Shown piece after piece: positions 1,872 through 42,005 of a stretch of 64,000 nucleotides of DNA. The stretch is taken from assembly GCA_034717495.1 (NCBI GenBank), contig JAYELL010000038.1, forward strand, positions 141,760 to 205,759. Direction: 5' to 3'. Position 1 is the first letter of the stretch, and each line of letters starts with the position of its first letter. A program made the translations under genes and the position numbers. The notes below the pieces were generated by a model. The model was not told where the DNA came from, ran no database searches, and was given only the letters and a program-made list of their open reading frames with translations. Source of the DNA: Chloroflexota bacterium. GTDB taxonomy: Bacteria > Chloroflexota > Anaerolineae > JAAEKA01.

Positions 1872-3944
1872 ATGACACATACAATTCACACGGTTCAGTT
1901 CGAGCCGGCTGGAGCGACGATTGCTGTTCCGGCCGGTACGACGATCGTCGACGCGGCTCAAGCCGCCGGTATTGACCTGAACATCCCCTGCGGTGGGCAA
2001 GGTCGGTGCGGGCGATGCGCCGTTAACGTTCGCGCGAACAACGGTGGTGACCCGGTGCGACGCCGCTCTACCTTGCGGCTGTCGGCCGACGACATCGCGG
2101 CTGGCTACGCGCTGGCCTGCCAGACGGTGATCACCGGTGATGCGACGATCACGGTGCCTCCGCAAGAGCGCATCGCCCGCATTCTGACCACCGACAAGAC
2201 GGTTCGCAAGATCGAACTGCCCTTCGATTACAGCATCGAGCGGCAGCCGCTGCGAGCCTGTTTCCTACAGCTCGACCCGCCCAGCCTGGAGGATCAAACC
2301 GATGACTGGAGTCGGGTGCAGGCAGCACTGCATCGGCAGACAGGTGGGGATGGCACCGGATTCCTGATCGATCTGCCAACATTGCGAAAACTGGGATCGG
2401 TCCTGCGCCAGGCCGACTGGCAAGTAACGGCGATCCTTGAGAACACCACATGGGATCGCCCCACAGGACCGCCGCGTGTCGTCGATGTTCTGCCGGGTGA
2501 TCAGACCGGGCACCTTTGGGCAGCAGCGTTGGACATCGGCACAACAACCGTTTCCCTTTTTCTGGTGGACCTGGCGACCGGCCGGGTTGTGGCACAGGCT
2601 GCCGACTATAACGGACAGATCCGGCGGGGCGAGGATGTTATCAGCAGGATCATCTATGCCAACAAAAGAGGACGCGGCGACGAGGCGACACGGCGACACG
2701 GCGACACGGAAACGCGAAGGCGCGGGCAGGGCATGACGGGCGGGCAGGCTGAGTTGCAGCAGTTGGTATTGGAGACGATCAACGGCCTGATCGGGCAGGT
2801 GTGCGGCTTTCGGGGCATCGAGCCGGAACAGATCGTTAAAATGGTGGTCTCCGGAAATCCCACCATGCACCATCTGTTCCTGGGACTGCCTCCTGAACCC
2901 ATTCGACTGGATCCATACATCCCGGCGGCCAACCACTATCCCGCCATCTCGGCCAGCGAACTGGGGCTCGCCATCAATGGGCAGGCAACCGTCGACTGTC
3001 TGCCGGGCGTGGCAAGCTACGTGGGTGCCGATATCAGTGCCGGCATTCTGGGATCAGGGCTCTGTCGGATCATCGAAAAGACCGGCGATGGCCTGCCCAT
3101 TCTCTTTCTGGACATCGGTACCAACGGAGAGATGGTGCTGGGCGACTGCGACTGGCTTGTGACCTGTGCCTGCTCTGCTGGTCCTGCCTTCGAGGGGGCC
3201 GGCGTGCACAATGGCATGCGAGCCACCCTGGGTGCCATCGACGAGGTGTGGATTAACACCCAGACCTATGAGCCGACCATCAGCGTCATTGGTGAGGAGG
3301 AGGGGGAGAAGCCCAGAGGCCTCTGCGGCTCGGCGTTGATTTCGCTGGTTGCGGAGTTATTCATCACCGGCGTGATCGACAGAAGCGGCAACCTGAACTT
3401 TGATTTGTATGACCTGGACGCCGGGGACTCGGTCGGGGACCGTCCCCAGTTTCGTCCCAGGGTTCGTGAGGGAGAACACGGCGGCGAATATGTGGTGGTC
3501 TGGGCAGAAGAAAGTGGCACTGGCGAGGATATCGTCATCACCGCGGTCGATATCGACAACCTGTTGAGGGCCAAGGCCGCGATCTACGCCGGCTGTTCGG
3601 TTTTGGCGGGCAGCGTGGGACTCACGATGGATGTGGTGAGCCAGGTGCTGGTCGGCGGTTCCTTTGGCAAACATATCAATGTTGAGAAGGCGGTGCAGCT
3701 GGGCTTGTTACCCGATGTTCCCTGGGAGAAGTTCCGGTTCCTTGGCAACACGTCGATCCAGGGCGCCTACATGGCGCTGTTGGATAGCGACCTGCGCCAA
3801 CGGGTGGCTGAGATCGCCGGAAACATGACCTATCTCGAGTTGTCCTGCGACAACCAGTTCTACGATCAATTCATGTCTGCACTGTTTCTGCCCCATACCG
3901 ATATGAGCCAGTTTCCGTCGGTGGCGGCATTGCTGGCAGAATAG
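1872..3944 (+). CDS. acsV: Reductive activator of the corrinoid iron-sulfur protein (RACo, DUF4445)
   Basis: A 690-residue ATP-dependent activator that re-reduces inactive Co(II) in AcsC to Co(I). The N terminus is a plant-type [2Fe-2S] ferredoxin with ligands C40, C46, C49 and C83. A linker follows, then an ASKHA-type ATPase that begins around residue 218 with the phosphate-binding motif DIGTTTVSLF. The gene directly follows acsC, as in acetogens. Residues about 266-290 are low-complexity and Arg-rich; they are encoded by a tandem GGCGACAC repeat at about 2667-2742 that looks like intergenic repeat captured in frame. No strong Shine-Dalgarno sequence precedes the ATG. Confidence 0.93.
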   Translation: MTHTIHTVQFEPAGATIAVPAGTTIVDAAQAAGIDLNIPCGGQGRCGRCAVNVRANNGGDPVRRRSTLRLSADDIAAGYALACQTVITGDATITVPPQERIARILTTDKTVRKIELPFDYSIERQPLRACFLQLDPPSLEDQTDDWSRVQAALHRQTGGDGTGFLIDLPTLRKLGSVLRQADWQVTAILENTTWDRPTGPPRVVDVLPGDQTGHLWAAALDIGTTTVSLFLVDLATGRVVAQAADYNGQIRRGEDVISRIIYANKRGRGDEATRRHGDTETRRRGQGMTGGQAELQQLVLETINGLIGQVCGFRGIEPEQIVKMVVSGNPTMHHLFLGLPPEPIRLDPYIPAANHYPAISASELGLAINGQATVDCLPGVASYVGADISAGILGSGLCRIIEKTGDGLPILFLDIGTNGEMVLGDCDWLVTCACSAGPAFEGAGVHNGMRATLGAIDEVWINTQTYEPTISVIGEEEGEKPRGLCGSALISLVAELFITGVIDRSGNLNFDLYDLDAGDSVGDRPQFRPRVREGEHGGEYVVVWAEESGTGEDIVITAVDIDNLLRAKAAIYAGCSVLAGSVGLTMDVVSQVLVGGSFGKHINVEKAVQLGLLPDVPWEKFRFLGNTSIQGAYMALLDSDLRQRVAEIAGNMTYLELSCDNQFYDQFMSALFLPHTDMSQFPSVAALLAE
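2667..2742 (+). repeat. In-frame GGCGACAC tandem repeat inside acsV
   Basis: Three exact GGCGACAC copies plus decayed flanks sit inside the acsV reading frame. The translation (RRHGDTETRRRG region) has no counterpart expected in the ASKHA fold. The three-copy core is 24 bases, which keeps the frame. Confidence 0.7.
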
Positions 3945-31610: not shown

Positions 31611-32261
31611 TCACTGGAAATCGCCCCCTGAAAAGAAATCGACAGTGGCTTGACCTCCGGCGATCTTCAGGTCCCGCAGCAGATATTCCAACTCGACACT
31701 GGTGTGCTTGGTGGCTGCGGCCACGGCAAAATCGAATAAAGGGCCCTGCCCCGGGCCGTCGAGATTCATGATTTCGTGGGAGTCGGCCGGGATCAGATGG
31801 CGTCGTATCAGGGAACCAAAGAGGGGAATCCGCACGCCGATAAAGTGCCAGGGACTGCCAGTGCCGGAGATGAGACCGGGCACGTTCAGGGGATCAGCAC
31901 ATATCTCAATGTCCTCGGGGGAGCAGTTTTCCCAGCCACCGTGTTGGTCTGTCCAAAGCATGACCCAATTGGAGTGCGCGTAAAAATCCTGCCTGCCATG
32001 CAGCAAGCGTCCGAAGGCCTGCAGGGCCGCTCTCCGGTCCTTGAGTCGCACCACGGCATCCGCTGCTTCCTGGCGTTGCAGGTCGATATACCGTTGGCCT
32101 GCCTCGAAGGCGCTATCGTCGAAGTGAATCTCCGGATGGCCGATCAGATTGGATAACCGATCCTGGTTCTGGTTGGCCTGGACTATCGTCTCCAGATCCT
32201 GGGGGCTGAAGCGATCTGCCAGACCATCAGCAGTCATCTTCCGGTGGGCTTCGCTGTTCAT
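31611..32261 (-). CDS. HET-C / zinc-dependent phospholipase-C-like protein
   Basis: A 216-residue protein. The segment LHGRQDFYAHSNWV is the best clue: the HxxxDFYxHSNW pattern is typical of HET-C domain proteins and related zinc-dependent phospholipase-C folds. Further His and Asp residues (AHRK near the start; HPEIHFDD) could complete a metal site. The ATG at 32261 lies two bases after the stop of the glycerol-3-phosphate dehydrogenase gene, so it is the last gene of the fadR operon. No signal peptide is visible. A lipid-linked hydrolase role is inference. Confidence 0.65.
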   Translation of the reverse strand: MNSEAHRKMTADGLADRFSPQDLETIVQANQNQDRLSNLIGHPEIHFDDSAFEAGQRYIDLQRQEAADAVVRLKDRRAALQAFGRLLHGRQDFYAHSNWVMLWTDQHGGWENCSPEDIEICADPLNVPGLISGTGSPWHFIGVRIPLFGSLIRRHLIPADSHEIMNLDGPGQGPLFDFAVAAATKHTSVELEYLLRDLKIAGGQATVDFFSGGDFQ

Positions 32262-32263
32262 GT

Positions 32264-34075
32264 TCAGACTGTCTGATCGCCCGGTCTTCCAAGGCCAAGC
32301 AGGGACCACGCCCTGGACTGGAGCTTCCACAAGGTCAGCAGAATAAGGGTTAAAACGCCGGCCATCAGCGGCGCACGAAGCGTCTGGCGCCGGCCGCGGG
32401 GACGAGTTGCCTGGCGCAAAAAGCGGGCTTTGGCCAGCAGGACGTGCCAATCAGGGATTTCATGGGCTTCGGGCAGGCTATAAGATTCCCGCCAGCCAGT
32501 CAGATATCTGGATTCTTCCTCCTGCCAACGAGAATCGCTCCAGTTCAGTTCCTCCTGGCAAATGGCCCGAATGCCGGGCAGATGATCGCGTCCGCCGTTG
32601 GGCAGCAACAGACCCAAACGGACGCGCCGCAACAGGAGATCGTCGAGGTGAATGACGGACTCGATTCTGGCTGCCCAGCGCAGTTCTGCCCAGAGGATAT
32701 CGGTGCCCGAGATTCGCTGTAATTCCTCGGGGTTGGCAGTCTCCACCAACTCATAGGCCCGGAGGCCGTAGTGGCCCAGCAGGCGCCTCCGGGCGCGTTC
32801 ATCCAGGGAGTGTCCAGGCCACAGGTCCACATCGACCGAATCCAGGACCGGCCGGTCACGATCGGGCTCCGATGTCTGCGGCAAACGATCCCGCACCGCC
32901 TTGAGCGCATCCAGGGCAATCAAACGAAAGGTGGTGAGCTTGCCCCCGGTGACGGTCAGCATACCCCTCTCGTCCCACACCACATGGTCACGGGATTCCC
33001 TGGAAGGATCGGCCTGGCCGGTGGCGACTACTGGGCGCACGCCGGAGAAGGTGGAGATGACATCCTTCAGGCCTATGTTGAGCGACGGAAACTGTCCCTC
33101 TACGGCGGCCATCAGGTAGGCGACCTCATTGGGACTGATGCGAGGTTCGTCATCCATTGACTGATCGTGGTCCAGATCGGTGGTGCCCACCAGCGTGATT
33201 CCCTCCCACGGGAAGATAAACACCGGGCGCCGGTCAATGGGGTGCAGAAAGCTGATGGCCTGGGCTACTGGAAGACGCCAGGTCGGAAAAATCAGATGAC
33301 TGCCCCGCAGTGCGCGGATCTTCGGCTCCTGGCCGATCTCCCTGCGCAGCCTGTCGGCCCAGGCGCCTGTGGCGTTGATGACAATCGTTGCTGTGACCAT
33401 GGCAGTTCGGCCACCACTGTCGAGAGGCAATTCATCCGATCCATCGCCGGCAAGGTCCCGAACAATCACACCGGTGACCTGTCCATCATCATCCTGGAGC
33501 AGCGACTCGACTCGTGCGTAGTTGATCGCCCTGCCGCCATCGGCCATCGCTTCCTGTATCACACGAAGTACCAGCCGGGCGTCGTCGGTCTGAGCATCGC
33601 CATATTGGAGCCCTCCCTGGAGTTTATCCTGGGTGATGTGAGGCGCCAGCATCTGCATCTCCTGGGGCTCGTAACGTCTGTGGCTCCACTGGAGGGCCAG
33701 CAGATCGTAGATTGAAAGCCCGGCGCGAAAGGTCCATGATCCCGGATTGTCGCCCTCGTAGGAGGTCAACAGGAAGCCCAGCGGATCGATCAATCCCGGG
33801 CCCTCACTGAGAAGCCGCTGGCGCTCGCGCACCGATGCTCGAGTGAGCCTGATTTTGCCCTGCTTCAGATAGCGAAGCCCACCGTGCACCAATTTGGATG
33901 ATCGGCTTGATGTGCCCCAGGCGAAGTCTCGCTGTTCCAATAAGAGCGCTTTCAGGCCCAGCCGGCTGGCCTCGCGCAGAATACCGGCGCCGGTGATCCC
34001 GCCTCCCACGATGATGATGTCCCATGCCTGATCCAGCCGGGACCAGGTAGTGTCCCGATTTTCCTGAGTACCCAT
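32264..34075 (-). CDS. glpD: FAD-dependent glycerol-3-phosphate dehydrogenase
   Basis: A 603-residue flavoprotein of the GlpA/GlpD family. The FAD motif is IIIVGGGITGAGILREASRLG (residues about 20-40), followed by the signature SSRSSKLVHGGLRYLK. The oxidase C-terminal helical domain (about 400-520) follows. It converts sn-glycerol 3-phosphate to dihydroxyacetone phosphate and passes electrons to quinone. Unusually, the C terminus ends in a predicted membrane helix (LMAGVLTLILLTLWKL). It lies in the FadR-controlled operon just after the alkyl-DHAP-synthase-like gene. Confidence 0.9.
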   Translation of the reverse strand: MGTQENRDTTWSRLDQAWDIIIVGGGITGAGILREASRLGLKALLLEQRDFAWGTSSRSSKLVHGGLRYLKQGKIRLTRASVRERQRLLSEGPGLIDPLGFLLTSYEGDNPGSWTFRAGLSIYDLLALQWSHRRYEPQEMQMLAPHITQDKLQGGLQYGDAQTDDARLVLRVIQEAMADGGRAINYARVESLLQDDDGQVTGVIVRDLAGDGSDELPLDSGGRTAMVTATIVINATGAWADRLRREIGQEPKIRALRGSHLIFPTWRLPVAQAISFLHPIDRRPVFIFPWEGITLVGTTDLDHDQSMDDEPRISPNEVAYLMAAVEGQFPSLNIGLKDVISTFSGVRPVVATGQADPSRESRDHVVWDERGMLTVTGGKLTTFRLIALDALKAVRDRLPQTSEPDRDRPVLDSVDVDLWPGHSLDERARRRLLGHYGLRAYELVETANPEELQRISGTDILWAELRWAARIESVIHLDDLLLRRVRLGLLLPNGGRDHLPGIRAICQEELNWSDSRWQEEESRYLTGWRESYSLPEAHEIPDWHVLLAKARFLRQATRPRGRRQTLRAPLMAGVLTLILLTLWKLQSRAWSLLGLGRPGDQTV

Positions 34076-34085
34076 GCCCTTCTCC

Positions 34086-35705
34086 TCAGCCGGCTTCGCT
34101 TGCCCGGTGGCCTTCTGCTGGCAACAATGTGCCAGGATTCAAAATACCGGCGGGATCGAATTGATGATAGAGCTCGCGTATGGTTCTCATGCCCAGTGCA
34201 CCCTTCTCAGCTGCCAGGTAGGGAGCGTGATCTTTTCCCACACCGTGCTGGTGGCTGATGGTGCCACCTCGTACGACGATAGCCTCGCTCGCGGCGGCCT
34301 TGAGACAACGCCAACGCTCCAGATTTTCATCAGGATCGGGCGACAACCTGAACAGGTAGGTCACGTAGATGCTGGATCCAGTGGGGTAAAGGTGGGACAG
34401 GTGGGTGAAGACATGCACGCGCTCGCCTGTTTCCTCCAGGGCCGCGTGCAAAGCGTTTTCGATGCCAGTCACCATGTCAGGGACAGCGGTCCAGGCGGTG
34501 GCGGTTTCCAGGGTGTCCACAGCATAACCTCGCTGCCACAGTGTATTGCGTAAGTAAGGAGTGCGGAACCTGCCCTTGTGCCACTGGTCCCCGAAACGGC
34601 GCCCGATGTGCACGCCACCGAACCGCCCCGAAATGGCTACGGCCTGCTGGCGGGAAATCTTGACGACATTGCTGTTGCCGGTGAAACCCATCAGCAGCAT
34701 GCATTTCTCTTTTCCAATCCGTCGCACCGAGAGAAGGCGCTCGAGCGCCGCAATCAATCGTTCATGTCCGGCCAGCGCCAACATCGTTTCTGTTTCAACG
34801 GGTGTACTGAGTCTCAGCATGGAAAGGGGAAGACGGGCCTGGATGACCGCCCGGGCTGCTGCCACTGCCCGTTCCCAATCGGGCAAAAAGATCGCGTGAA
34901 ACTCCTCTCGCTCAGCCAGTGGCGTCGTTCGAACCGTTGCCTCGGTGAGGATGCCCATGCGACCTTCCGAACCCAAAAACAGCTCGCGAAGATCGGGGCC
35001 GGCAGCTGATGCGGGAAACGGTGGCAGGGTCATTGTTCCAGCCGGGCTTTCCACCACGCCCCCGGCAAAGAGTGCCTCGATGCGGCCGTAGCCCAGCGAC
35101 TGTTGTCCACTTGAGCGAGTTGCAATCCAGCCGCCCAGCGTGGAGTATTCAAAGGATTGTGGAAAATGGCCCAGCGTGACTCCCTGTGCCCGCAGCAGTG
35201 CCTCAAGATCAGGTCCGGCGACACCGGCTCCAAAGGTGGCAAGCTGGCTGGTGCTGTCATACTGGAGCAATCGATTCAGGCGGCTCAAATCGATCGTGAG
35301 GGTGGGCTGGTCCATCTGCGGGTTGATATGCCCGACAACTGACGTGCCACCGCCGTAGGGGATGATCCTGGCACCAACTTGCCCTGCAAAATCCATCAAC
35401 TCCCGGACATCCTGGTTGGAAAGCGGATAAGCAACCCCATCAGGAAAGGTGGCGATTCGGCCACTGCGCAGGGCAATCCAGTCTGGCAGGCTCTGGCCGC
35501 GTGCATGGCGCAACCGGTCTTCTGCATCCAGGGAGACCAGTGCATGATAGGGAAGTCGGCCTGGCGGCACGGCACTGAGGACACTTGCCAGAGAAGCATC
35601 GGCCGGTCGCGTGCCCGGCCCGACAAACTCCTCCAGGAAACCGGCCGCCCGCGCTGGCAATGGGTAGATTATCGAGTTATCACCCCAGCCGTTCCACCGC
35701 TGCAT
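34086..35705 (-). CDS. Alkyldihydroxyacetonephosphate synthase-like FAD enzyme
   Basis: A 539-residue VAO-family flavoprotein (FAD_binding_4 plus FAD-oxidase C). The N terminus MQRWNGWGD, the PP loop YGGGTSVVGH (about 116-125), the STLGGWIATRSSGQQSLGYG segment and the C-terminal ISHQHGVGKDH are characteristic of alkylglycerone-phosphate synthase rather than of lactate or glycolate oxidases. The family swaps the acyl chain of acyl-DHAP for a fatty alcohol, which makes the ether bond. The gene overlaps the fadR 3' end by 37 bases and precedes glpD by ten. Confidence 0.83.
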   Translation of the reverse strand: MQRWNGWGDNSIIYPLPARAAGFLEEFVGPGTRPADASLASVLSAVPPGRLPYHALVSLDAEDRLRHARGQSLPDWIALRSGRIATFPDGVAYPLSNQDVRELMDFAGQVGARIIPYGGGTSVVGHINPQMDQPTLTIDLSRLNRLLQYDSTSQLATFGAGVAGPDLEALLRAQGVTLGHFPQSFEYSTLGGWIATRSSGQQSLGYGRIEALFAGGVVESPAGTMTLPPFPASAAGPDLRELFLGSEGRMGILTEATVRTTPLAEREEFHAIFLPDWERAVAAARAVIQARLPLSMLRLSTPVETETMLALAGHERLIAALERLLSVRRIGKEKCMLLMGFTGNSNVVKISRQQAVAISGRFGGVHIGRRFGDQWHKGRFRTPYLRNTLWQRGYAVDTLETATAWTAVPDMVTGIENALHAALEETGERVHVFTHLSHLYPTGSSIYVTYLFRLSPDPDENLERWRCLKAAASEAIVVRGGTISHQHGVGKDHAPYLAAEKGALGMRTIRELYHQFDPAGILNPGTLLPAEGHRASEAG

Positions 35706-36415
35706 GGTACTACCTCAAGTTGTTCAGGCGTCGCCTGTTGCCAGAGCAGAATAGTCTGTTGCATGACCTGCCGGGAGATCTCTTCAGCGGAATCGGCATC
35801 CTGGTTTATGGCTATCGCCTGAAACGATTCGTAGAACGATCGTGATATGGCTCGCGCCTCGGGCAAGGCAAAGTACTGGCATGCCATCTGCTCGTAGAAG
35901 CCGGCGAAACCGTTTAGAATCAGCGTGTAAATGGGATTGCCGGACTCGATTGTCAGGAGATGGTGGAGTTCCCAATCGAAGCGCGCGAAGGCGACAGGGT
36001 TGTCGTCCAGCTGGATGCCTTCGCTGAGTTTTCTGGTTATCGTGCCGGGCGCTCGGGAGACAGCCGCTCGCGAGTAGGCTGGCGCCAGATGTAGCCGTAC
36101 CTTCAATAAGTTGGGTACGAAATCGGGTGGCAGCTCTCTACCGTATCTCACCATGGCGCCGAGCACATTGAGACCACCTTCGCGCCAGAAGTCATTGACA
36201 GTGGTAGGTTTGCCTTGTTGAATGGTGAGCCAGCCATCCCGGGCCAGCCGCTGCAATGCCTCACGAAGGGTGGGGCGAGTGACTCCCAGGCTCGCAGCCA
36301 GGTCGCGTTCGCCAGGAAGTGCCGTGCCGGGCGCATAGGTGTCGTCGAGAATTGCGTTTACCAGCGCCTGTTCGGCGTACTGTGCCGGGCGTTGGGGAGG
36401 TTTCCAGGATCTCAA
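35669..36415 (-). CDS. fadR: FadR-family fatty-acid-responsive regulator
   Basis: A 248-residue GntR/FadR protein. The N-terminal winged helix includes LGVTRPTLREALQRLARDGW, followed by LTIQQGKPTTVNDFW, almost the E. coli FadR wording. The C-terminal half has the acyl-CoA-binding FadR_C signature SGNPIYTLILNGFAGFYEQM and YFALPEARAISRSFYESF. It should bind DNA and release it with long-chain acyl-CoA. The start is TTG with GAGG six bases upstream. A FadR-box-like operator lies at 36446-36462, directly downstream of its own -10, which implies autoregulation of the operon. Confidence 0.9.
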   Translation of the reverse strand: MRSWKPPQRPAQYAEQALVNAILDDTYAPGTALPGERDLAASLGVTRPTLREALQRLARDGWLTIQQGKPTTVNDFWREGGLNVLGAMVRYGRELPPDFVPNLLKVRLHLAPAYSRAAVSRAPGTITRKLSEGIQLDDNPVAFARFDWELHHLLTIESGNPIYTLILNGFAGFYEQMACQYFALPEARAISRSFYESFQAIAINQDADSAEEISRQVMQQTILLWQQATPEQLEVVPCSGGTAGVITR

Positions 36416-36445
36416 AGCGTGCCTCGCAAAACTTGATTAACTGGT

Positions 36446-36462
36446 AAGTGGTCTGACCAGTT
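36446..36462 (-). promoter_or_regulatory. FadR operator
   Basis: The 17-mer AAGTGGTCTGACCAGTT fits the known FadR core TGGTNNGACCA exactly (36449-36459). It lies about 7 bases past the -10 box, covering the expected transcription start, 31 bases before the fadR start codon. Confidence 0.75.
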
Positions 36463-36468
36463 GTTATC

Positions 36469-36497
36469 AATATAGCATGGGGACAACGGAATGTCAA
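36469..36497 (-). promoter_or_regulatory. Promoter of the fadR operon
   Basis: TTGACA (36492-36497), a 17-base spacer, then TATATT (36469-36474) preceded by TGC on the minus strand. It lies just past the MFS gene stop, so the operon has its own promoter. Confidence 0.8.
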
Positions 36498-40780: not shown

Positions 40781-41905
40781 ATGGCCCACGTCGCCGACCA
40801 GCACGCCTATCGCCGGATTGTTCTCAAACTGGGTACCAGCGTGCTTACCGCCGGCTCGCCCCGGTTGAATCGACCGCGCCTGGTGGAACTGGCCCGCCAA
40901 TGCGCCCGACTACACGAGTCGAGTGTGGAAATCATCATCGTCAGTTCCGGTGCCATTGGAGTTGGGCGGGAGAGCCTCGGTTTCCGAAAATTGCAGCAGG
41001 CGGTTCCTGTCAAGCAGATGTTGGCAGCCGTTGGCCAGAGTCGACTGATGCACCACTACGAGCAGCTTTTTTCCATCTACGACATCGTTGTGGGGCAGGT
41101 TCTGCTGACCCGGGCGGACCTGGACAATCGCAGCCGTTATCTCAACGCCCGTGACACGTTTCAGGCGCTTCTCCAGGAAGGGATCGTGCCTATCACCAAT
41201 GAAAATGACGCAGTGGCGACGGAGGAGATCAAACTGGGTGACAACGACACGCTGTCGGCGCTGGTTGCCAACCTGGTAGAGGCGGACCTGTTGTTGATCC
41301 TGACCGATCAGCCCGGGCTGTTAACAGCGGATCCCCGGATCGATCCTGGCGCCCAGTTGATTCACGAGGTGATGACCGTTGACGATGATCTGCGGGCGCG
41401 GGCCGGTGGCACCGGCACCGATCTGGGTGTGGGCGGCATGTCCACCAAGCTGGCGGCGGCGGAGCTGGCCCGACGCGGCGGAGTCGATGTTGTGGTGGCA
41501 TCAGGAAATGTCGAAGATGTGGTGCTGCGGGTGTGCAAGGGGGAACGAATCGGTACCCGATTTCCCGCGCTGGCCGGTAAGTTGGAGAGCCGAAAGCGCT
41601 GGCTGTTGGGAGGCCTGATCCCCAGTGGGCGTATCTTTGTCGACGCCGGGGCGGTCGCTGCATTGCTTGATCACGACCGAAGTCTCCTGCCGGTTGGAGT
41701 GATTTCCGTCGAAGGTCAGTTCAGCCGCGGCGACACTGTCAGAATCTGCCATGCCGATGGTTCAGAAATTGCTCGTGGCCTGTCTCGCTACGGCGCCCAT
41801 TCGCTGGACCGCATCAAGGGCCGTAAATCGGAGGAAATCGAAGCGATTCTGGGCTATGAGTATGGTGCCGAGGTTGTCCACCGGGACGATCTGGTGGTGT
41901 TATAG
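40781..41905 (+). CDS. proB: Glutamate 5-kinase
   Basis: A 374-residue glutamate kinase, first step of proline synthesis. The amino-acid-kinase domain (1-260) has VLKLGTSVL, IIVSSGAIGVG, PITNENDAVATEEI and GTGTDLGVGGMSTKL. A C-terminal PUA domain (about 280-374) is present, the site of proline feedback in some enzymes. The ATG at 40781 follows GAGG nine bases earlier; the frame is open upstream but lacks homology. proA follows after 172 bases, which include a hairpin and a separate promoter. Confidence 0.95.
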   Translation: MAHVADQHAYRRIVLKLGTSVLTAGSPRLNRPRLVELARQCARLHESSVEIIIVSSGAIGVGRESLGFRKLQQAVPVKQMLAAVGQSRLMHHYEQLFSIYDIVVGQVLLTRADLDNRSRYLNARDTFQALLQEGIVPITNENDAVATEEIKLGDNDTLSALVANLVEADLLLILTDQPGLLTADPRIDPGAQLIHEVMTVDDDLRARAGGTGTDLGVGGMSTKLAAAELARRGGVDVVVASGNVEDVVLRVCKGERIGTRFPALAGKLESRKRWLLGGLIPSGRIFVDAGAVAALLDHDRSLLPVGVISVEGQFSRGDTVRICHADGSEIARGLSRYGAHSLDRIKGRKSEEIEAILGYEYGAEVVHRDDLVVL

Positions 41906-41923
41906 TCATGCTAATATGTCAAT

Positions 41924-41993
41924 ATATCACCATGTCAAGATCCAATGCGCGCCAAAACAATATTGACATAATGACATCCTGGCATGGTGATAT
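41924..41993. repeat. 70-bp inverted-repeat element between proB and proA
   Basis: The ends are 11-bp perfect inverted repeats, ATATCACCATG (41924-41934) and CATGGTGATAT (41983-41993). A nested pair ATGTCAA/TTGACAT lies inside. It may act as a proB terminator or be a small REP-like element. A T-rich stretch begins about ten bases after it. Confidence 0.65.
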
Positions 41994-42005
41994 CCCCCCC
42001 TATTT

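Follow-up and report, generated by a model that had tools for sequence, protein, structure and literature searches.

A candidate acyl-CoA-responsive control region of a probable ether-lipid and glycerol-3-phosphate operon in Chloroflexota, built on a FadR operator with three half-sites

The window, a 64-kb stretch of DNA from a bacterium of the Chloroflexota, carries on its minus strand a gene for the transcriptional regulator FadR, which is preceded by a promoter and an operator and followed by a run of genes read in the same direction. FadR is a textbook regulator that, to our knowledge, has been studied almost only in gammaproteobacteria. The features of the locus are listed below.

36469 to 36497, minus strand: sigma-70-type promoter of fadR (TTGACA at 36497–36492, 17-nt spacer, TATATT at 36474–36469)
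36439 to 36462, minus strand: whole 24-bp operator, AACTGGTCAGACCACTTACCAGTT, with three half-sites
36446 to 36462, minus strand: AACTGGTCAGACCACTT, the canonical box of FadR type, made up of half-sites 1 and 2 and overlapping the expected start of transcription
36442 to 36445, minus strand: third half-site, ACCA (TGGT on the plus strand), its centre lying 10.5 nt away from that of the box
35669 to 36415, minus strand: fadR, 248 aa, TTG start; the first residues, MRSWKPPQRP, align with the starts of orthologs
34086 to 35705, minus strand: agpS-like gene of the alkyl-DHAP synthase family, 539 aa, with a 37-nt overlap with the 3' end of fadR
32264 to 34075, minus strand: glpD-like gene for an FAD-dependent glycerol-3-phosphate dehydrogenase, 603 aa, the conserved third gene
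31611 to 32450, minus strand: ORF with a VWA7_N match, last of the run, overlapping glpD and not conserved in other operons

The preliminary description of this DNA had spoken of a fadR operon. An operon with fadR as its first gene does lie here, but its further members are agpS and glpD and not fad genes; the VWA7_N ORF (31611–32450) probably stands outside the unit.

The FadR protein and its distribution

Judged by its sequence, the product of the first gene is a true FadR, as had been proposed, and the domain matches, the NCBIfam equivalog cut-off, and the nearest solved structure all agree on this identity. The FadR_C domain (PF07840) is matched with 132 bits against a cut-off of 23.6 (E 2.4e-38) and the GntR domain with 72.8 bits against 27 (E 1.8e-20). 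The NCBIfam FadR equivalog model NF003444 gives 224.4 bits, above its cut-off of 189, while the gammaproteobacterial model TIGR02812 (fadR_gamma) gives 222.4 bits, below its cut-off of 249.2. The nearest solved structure is that of E. coli FadR (E 7e-54), and no other FadR_C protein is found in the genome.

In E. coli FadR, DNA is contacted by R35, T44, R45, T46, T47, R49, and H65, and acyl-CoA by G216, S219, and W223 (PMC4537474). Five of the seven DNA contacts (R35, T44, R45, T47, and R49) are invariant in 93 Chloroflexota orthologs, as are R105 and Y193; S219 is kept in 91 of the 93, with Ser or Thr in all, and W223 in 90. At H65 the orthologs have Gln (51) or His (42), the window copy having Gln, whereas Pro stands in place of T46 and Met in place of G216, each in 92 of 93. 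Because these two substitutions, T46P and G216M, are present in nearly all Chloroflexota FadRs, the contacts with the operator and the pocket for CoA may not be those of E. coli.

Of 298 genomes sampled from the class, 38 contain one ortholog each, at 43–66% identity, and the gene also occurs in one family of a second Chloroflexota class; most of the named ortholog records belong to Anaerolineae and related Chloroflexota. FadR is old and widespread in this phylum. It had been suggested that regulator and site may have been acquired jointly by horizontal transfer, which we consider here as a recent event with gammaproteobacteria as the source. FadR with a FadR_C domain is best known from that group, and PF07840 was found in E. 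coli alone among 14 control genomes. Yet in a midpoint-rooted tree, thinly sampled outside Chloroflexota, the 93 Chloroflexota FadRs and six gammaproteobacterial sequences fall on opposite sides of a branch with 100/100 support and a length of 1.29 changes per site. This long and fully supported split, together with the broad spread in Chloroflexota, argues against a recent joint transfer, as does the absence of the longer operator element described below from the five gammaproteobacterial fadR genes checked, and we regard such a transfer as very improbable. An older transfer of FadR, in either direction, is possible. Separately, one record named as an Actinomycetota MAG (L144) and one named as a Bacillota MAG (L123) carry a full Chloroflexota-type fadR-agpS-glpD operon with its operator; these are either mislabelled bins or transfers.

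Promoter and three-part operator

The promoter, described beforehand as an ideal TTGACA-17-TATATT, is present exactly on the minus strand, matches 11 of 12 consensus bases, and has a TG before its -10 hexamer. The operator box begins 6 nt past the -10, so transcription is expected to start right at the beginning of the box. The near-perfect FadR box itself was also placed correctly: on the plus strand it reads AAGTGGTCTGACCAGTT at 36446–36462, and it contains the core TGGTCTGACCA (36449–36459), which is the sole exact instance of TGGTNNGACCA within the 64-kb window. This core had been presented as the exact core of enteric FadR sites. It is present, but TGGTNNGACCA is a general FadR-subfamily pattern and not diagnostic for a fatty-acid FadR. 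As evidence on its own the 11-bp core TGGTNNGACCA was rejected, being at or below chance in both the window and the genome: with at most one mismatch it occurs 15 times in the window against 15.2 expected, and genome-wide it gives 54 strand-hits, fewer than the 99 of the reversed pattern.

Although the box is real, it is not the full site. A third half-site, a full-strength ACCA missed in the preliminary description, directly adjoins the 17-bp box, and the two form a 21-bp element, AACTGGTNNGACCWCTTACCA, on the minus strand at 36442–36462 with the half-site layout TGGT-N3-ACCW-N3-ACCA. The outer arms of the operator, AACTGGT and ACCAGTT, are a perfect inverted repeat. This longer three-part element is far beyond chance. 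The exact 21-mer has a single copy in the window genome, and nearly every genome that carries FadR has one such site, exact or nearly so, at fadR. In 76 genomes that lack FadR, most of which have agpS, there are zero exact copies, and the scattered matches with one or two mismatches are fewer than those of the reversed control. A phage match to the fadR control region was sought and none was found.

The box also stands before orthologous fadR genes. In 89 of 93 distinct Chloroflexota orthologs, AACTGGTNNGACCWCTTACCA with at most three departures lies shortly before the fadR start codon, and three of the four orthologs that lack it are near contig starts. The fourth, L156, is also without the usual neighbours; L156/L098 (genome G280) is a fast-evolving FadR with no operator and no adjoining agpS or glpD, possibly a decaying or re-purposed copy.

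Across the 89 sites, TGGT, GACC, CT, and the ACC of the third half-site carry 1.8–2.0 bits per position, the W position carries about 1.0 bit, and the downstream flank beyond position 23 carries less than 0.15 bit; upstream, the -10 alone shows. The third half-site is as strong as half-site 1, with 83–89 of the 89 sequences agreeing at each of its positions (1.6–2.0 bits). Half-sites 1 and 3 share the wider word AACTGGT, the middle half-site reading AAGWGGT, and in variants with TGGTAAG the whole operator becomes a palindrome with 10-bp arms around ACCA.

The position of the element bears on whether the third half-site belongs to the operator at all. FadR could use an ordinary operator of two half-sites, and the third could mark a need of the promoter or of the initial transcribed sequence, a reading consistent with the constant distance between the -10 and the element in many orthologs (as in the window, this gap is 6 nt in 44 of the 80 orthologs whose element has the same orientation). 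The third half-site is nevertheless kept where the gap to the -10 is 1–2 nt instead of 6, and where the element is inverted relative to fadR, which is the case in nine loci from at least four separate lineages; in these the outer arm still adjoins the -10. It is kept as well 396 nt upstream of an unlinked agpS, as described below, it is conserved like half-site 1, and it matches AACTGGT better than the middle half-site does. We therefore consider the two-half-site reading unlikely. The alternative of an RNA element that folds at the start of the fadR transcript, where the outer arms could form a hairpin, was rejected as scarcely credible: an element that occurs in both orientations points to a DNA operator, the loop bases are conserved like the arms, and the outer right flank varies without compensation.

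Elsewhere in the window, the intergenic region at 41905–41995, after a gene resembling that for glutamate 5-kinase, contains repeated and inverted words, ATATCACCATG and CATGGTGATAT.

The agpS-glpD operon and the reach of the regulon

In all 30 of the first loci, the agpS-like gene adjoins fadR directly downstream. The genes are arranged in two ways, either as fadR-agpS-glpD or as fadR-glpD with a more distant agpS homologue (27–36% identity) after them, and in several operons an FGGY kinase is the fourth gene. Two loci, L167 and L181, have the FGGY kinase directly after fadR, glycine-cleavage genes next, and neither agpS nor glpD in the vicinity. In counts tallied by hand from genome tables, AgpS is present in 34 of the 38 FadR genomes against 60 of 260 others (Fisher p 1.9e-15), and the FGGY kinase in 20 of 38 against 33 of 260 (p 1.1e-7). 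The window genome has no FGGY kinase of the operon type at the threshold used. In genomes lacking FadR, agpS and glpD can also be paired, in some cases together with the kinase, and no obvious local regulator accompanies them. FadR is therefore not essential to the pathway and looks like a control that was added onto an existing module.

Among solved structures, the AgpS-like protein is closest to the ADHAPS enzymes of Dictyostelium (E 1e-73) and of mammals (E 9e-60). It shares key residues with alkyl-DHAP synthase (AGPS/AgpS): the equivalents of the catalytic R419, Y578, H615, and H617 are invariant and H616 is Gln, so that the Chloroflexota family reads HQH where the solved enzymes read HHH. 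The GlpD-like protein scores 284.8, below the GlpD equivalog cut-off of 360. The FGGY kinase is below the NCBIfam cut-offs of both GlpK (159 against 590) and XylB (258 against 380); it retains R83, W103, and D245 of GlpK and loses E84, Y135, and F270.

In genome G180 the operon is split. There fadR-glpD has its site, and agpS lies on another contig (L099, contig C157, 3978–5588) with a near-perfect three-part operator of its own at 3562–3582, 396 nt upstream. The site is thus tied to the regulon and is not merely a part of the fadR promoter. No second intergenic operator site was found in the window genome, and a wider regulon there was rejected, as the five best 16-mer sites and the one secondary long site that were checked all lie within coding sequence. 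Among relatives, genome G233 has a second site at the start of a peptidase-like ORF, within its first codons, G253 has a similar one, and G070 has an extra site between other genes; these sites have no lipid gene in common as a shared further target.

Proposed regulation and comparison with known systems

We propose that the locus is an autoregulated control region in which FadR acts as a repressor, released by acyl-CoA, of an ether-lipid and glycerol-3-phosphate operon, and to this reading, in which binding, repression, effector, and pathway direction are inferred from sequence, we assign a probability of about 0.7. FadR dimers would bind the three half-sites over the transcription start and block RNA polymerase; the operator covers the expected start, where a repressor would be placed. 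A rise in long-chain acyl-CoA would lead FadR to bind this ligand and leave the operator, and the fadR-agpS-glpD operon, with the FGGY kinase in many relatives, would then be made. Since the enzymes connect glycerol-3-phosphate and DHAP with the alkyl-DHAP step, the operon most likely serves ether-lipid metabolism, running either in the direction of synthesis or in reverse as salvage of alkylglycerols.

A tentative variant of this proposal is that FadR induces the salvage of alkylglycerols or lipid glycerol, with the FGGY kinase and the GlpD-like enzyme acting before a reverse AgpS reaction that frees the chain. A repressor position at +1 and the logic of FadR predict induction by acyl-CoA, which fits catabolism, and the kinase that forms the fourth gene falls below the GlpK and XylB cut-offs with some GlpK residues kept and is enriched with FadR, as counted above. 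Set against this are the window genome, which lacks such a kinase at the threshold used, and the known biosynthetic role of AgpS (PMC9131029). The Myxococcus AgpS is partnered by FAR/acyltransferase, whereas the partners in Chloroflexota are FadR, the GlpD-like protein, and the FGGY kinase.

For the architecture of the operator, the GntR family offers a precedent. Its sites can have an extra half-site 7–12 nt from the palindrome centre, with a weaker box of about half the score of a true half-site and with its function left open, and six Chloroflexi factors of the FadR subfamily were included in that analysis (Suvorova et al. 2015, PMC4494728). The Chloroflexota third half-site, at 10.5 nt, fits this rule and is conserved, but it is conserved like half-site 1 (n = 89) and is not weak. 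NanR of E. coli, another member of the FadR subfamily with three half-sites, binds (GGTATA)3 as asymmetrically seated dimers that pack side by side, one domain lying on a consensus repeat, and its cooperativity needs a 32-residue N-terminal extension (PMC8012715). NanR is thus a precedent for several dimers on one operator; its repeats are direct, however, whereas the half-sites here are in mixed orientation, and the N-terminal extension is absent from the window FadR. By analogy, half-site 3 may hold a second FadR dimer. The fuller combination, in which two dimers occupy the three half-sites and acyl-CoA switches on ether-lipid salvage through an alkylglycerol kinase, the dehydrogenase, and reverse AgpS, is a more doubtful proposition than salvage by itself. 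If true, both the architecture of the operator and the regulon would be new for this classic fatty-acid sensor.

In the literature searched, we found no paper on FadR in Anaerolineae, none on FadR with alkyl-DHAP synthase genes as its regulon, and none on what AgpS-type ether-lipid genes do in Chloroflexota or how they are regulated. A third half-site of lesser strength has precedent in GntR operators, but one so strong and conserved, together with such a regulon, was not found described there. An old and widespread FadR branch with another operon and a near-invariant third half-site constitutes a natural test of the role of the extra half-site in GntR sites, and the association suggests a testable role and regulation for the AgpS-type ether-lipid genes of Chloroflexota.

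E. coli FadR belongs to the same family and shares five of the seven DNA-contact residues, and its 17-bp sites at fadBA, fadL, fadE, and fabA resemble the box AACTGGTCNGACCWNTT. Its targets are fatty-acid genes, whereas the Chloroflexota FadR is linked to agpS-glpD, and the promoter region of E. coli fadR, unlike that of its Chloroflexota counterpart, has no good box. The E. coli FadR sites checked are without a full third half-site, the nearest to one being fadE, AAGTGGTCAGACCTCCTACAAG. This fadE site with its right flank (L255, around 326) and the Chloroflexota operator agree at 19 of 22 positions, which may be chance.
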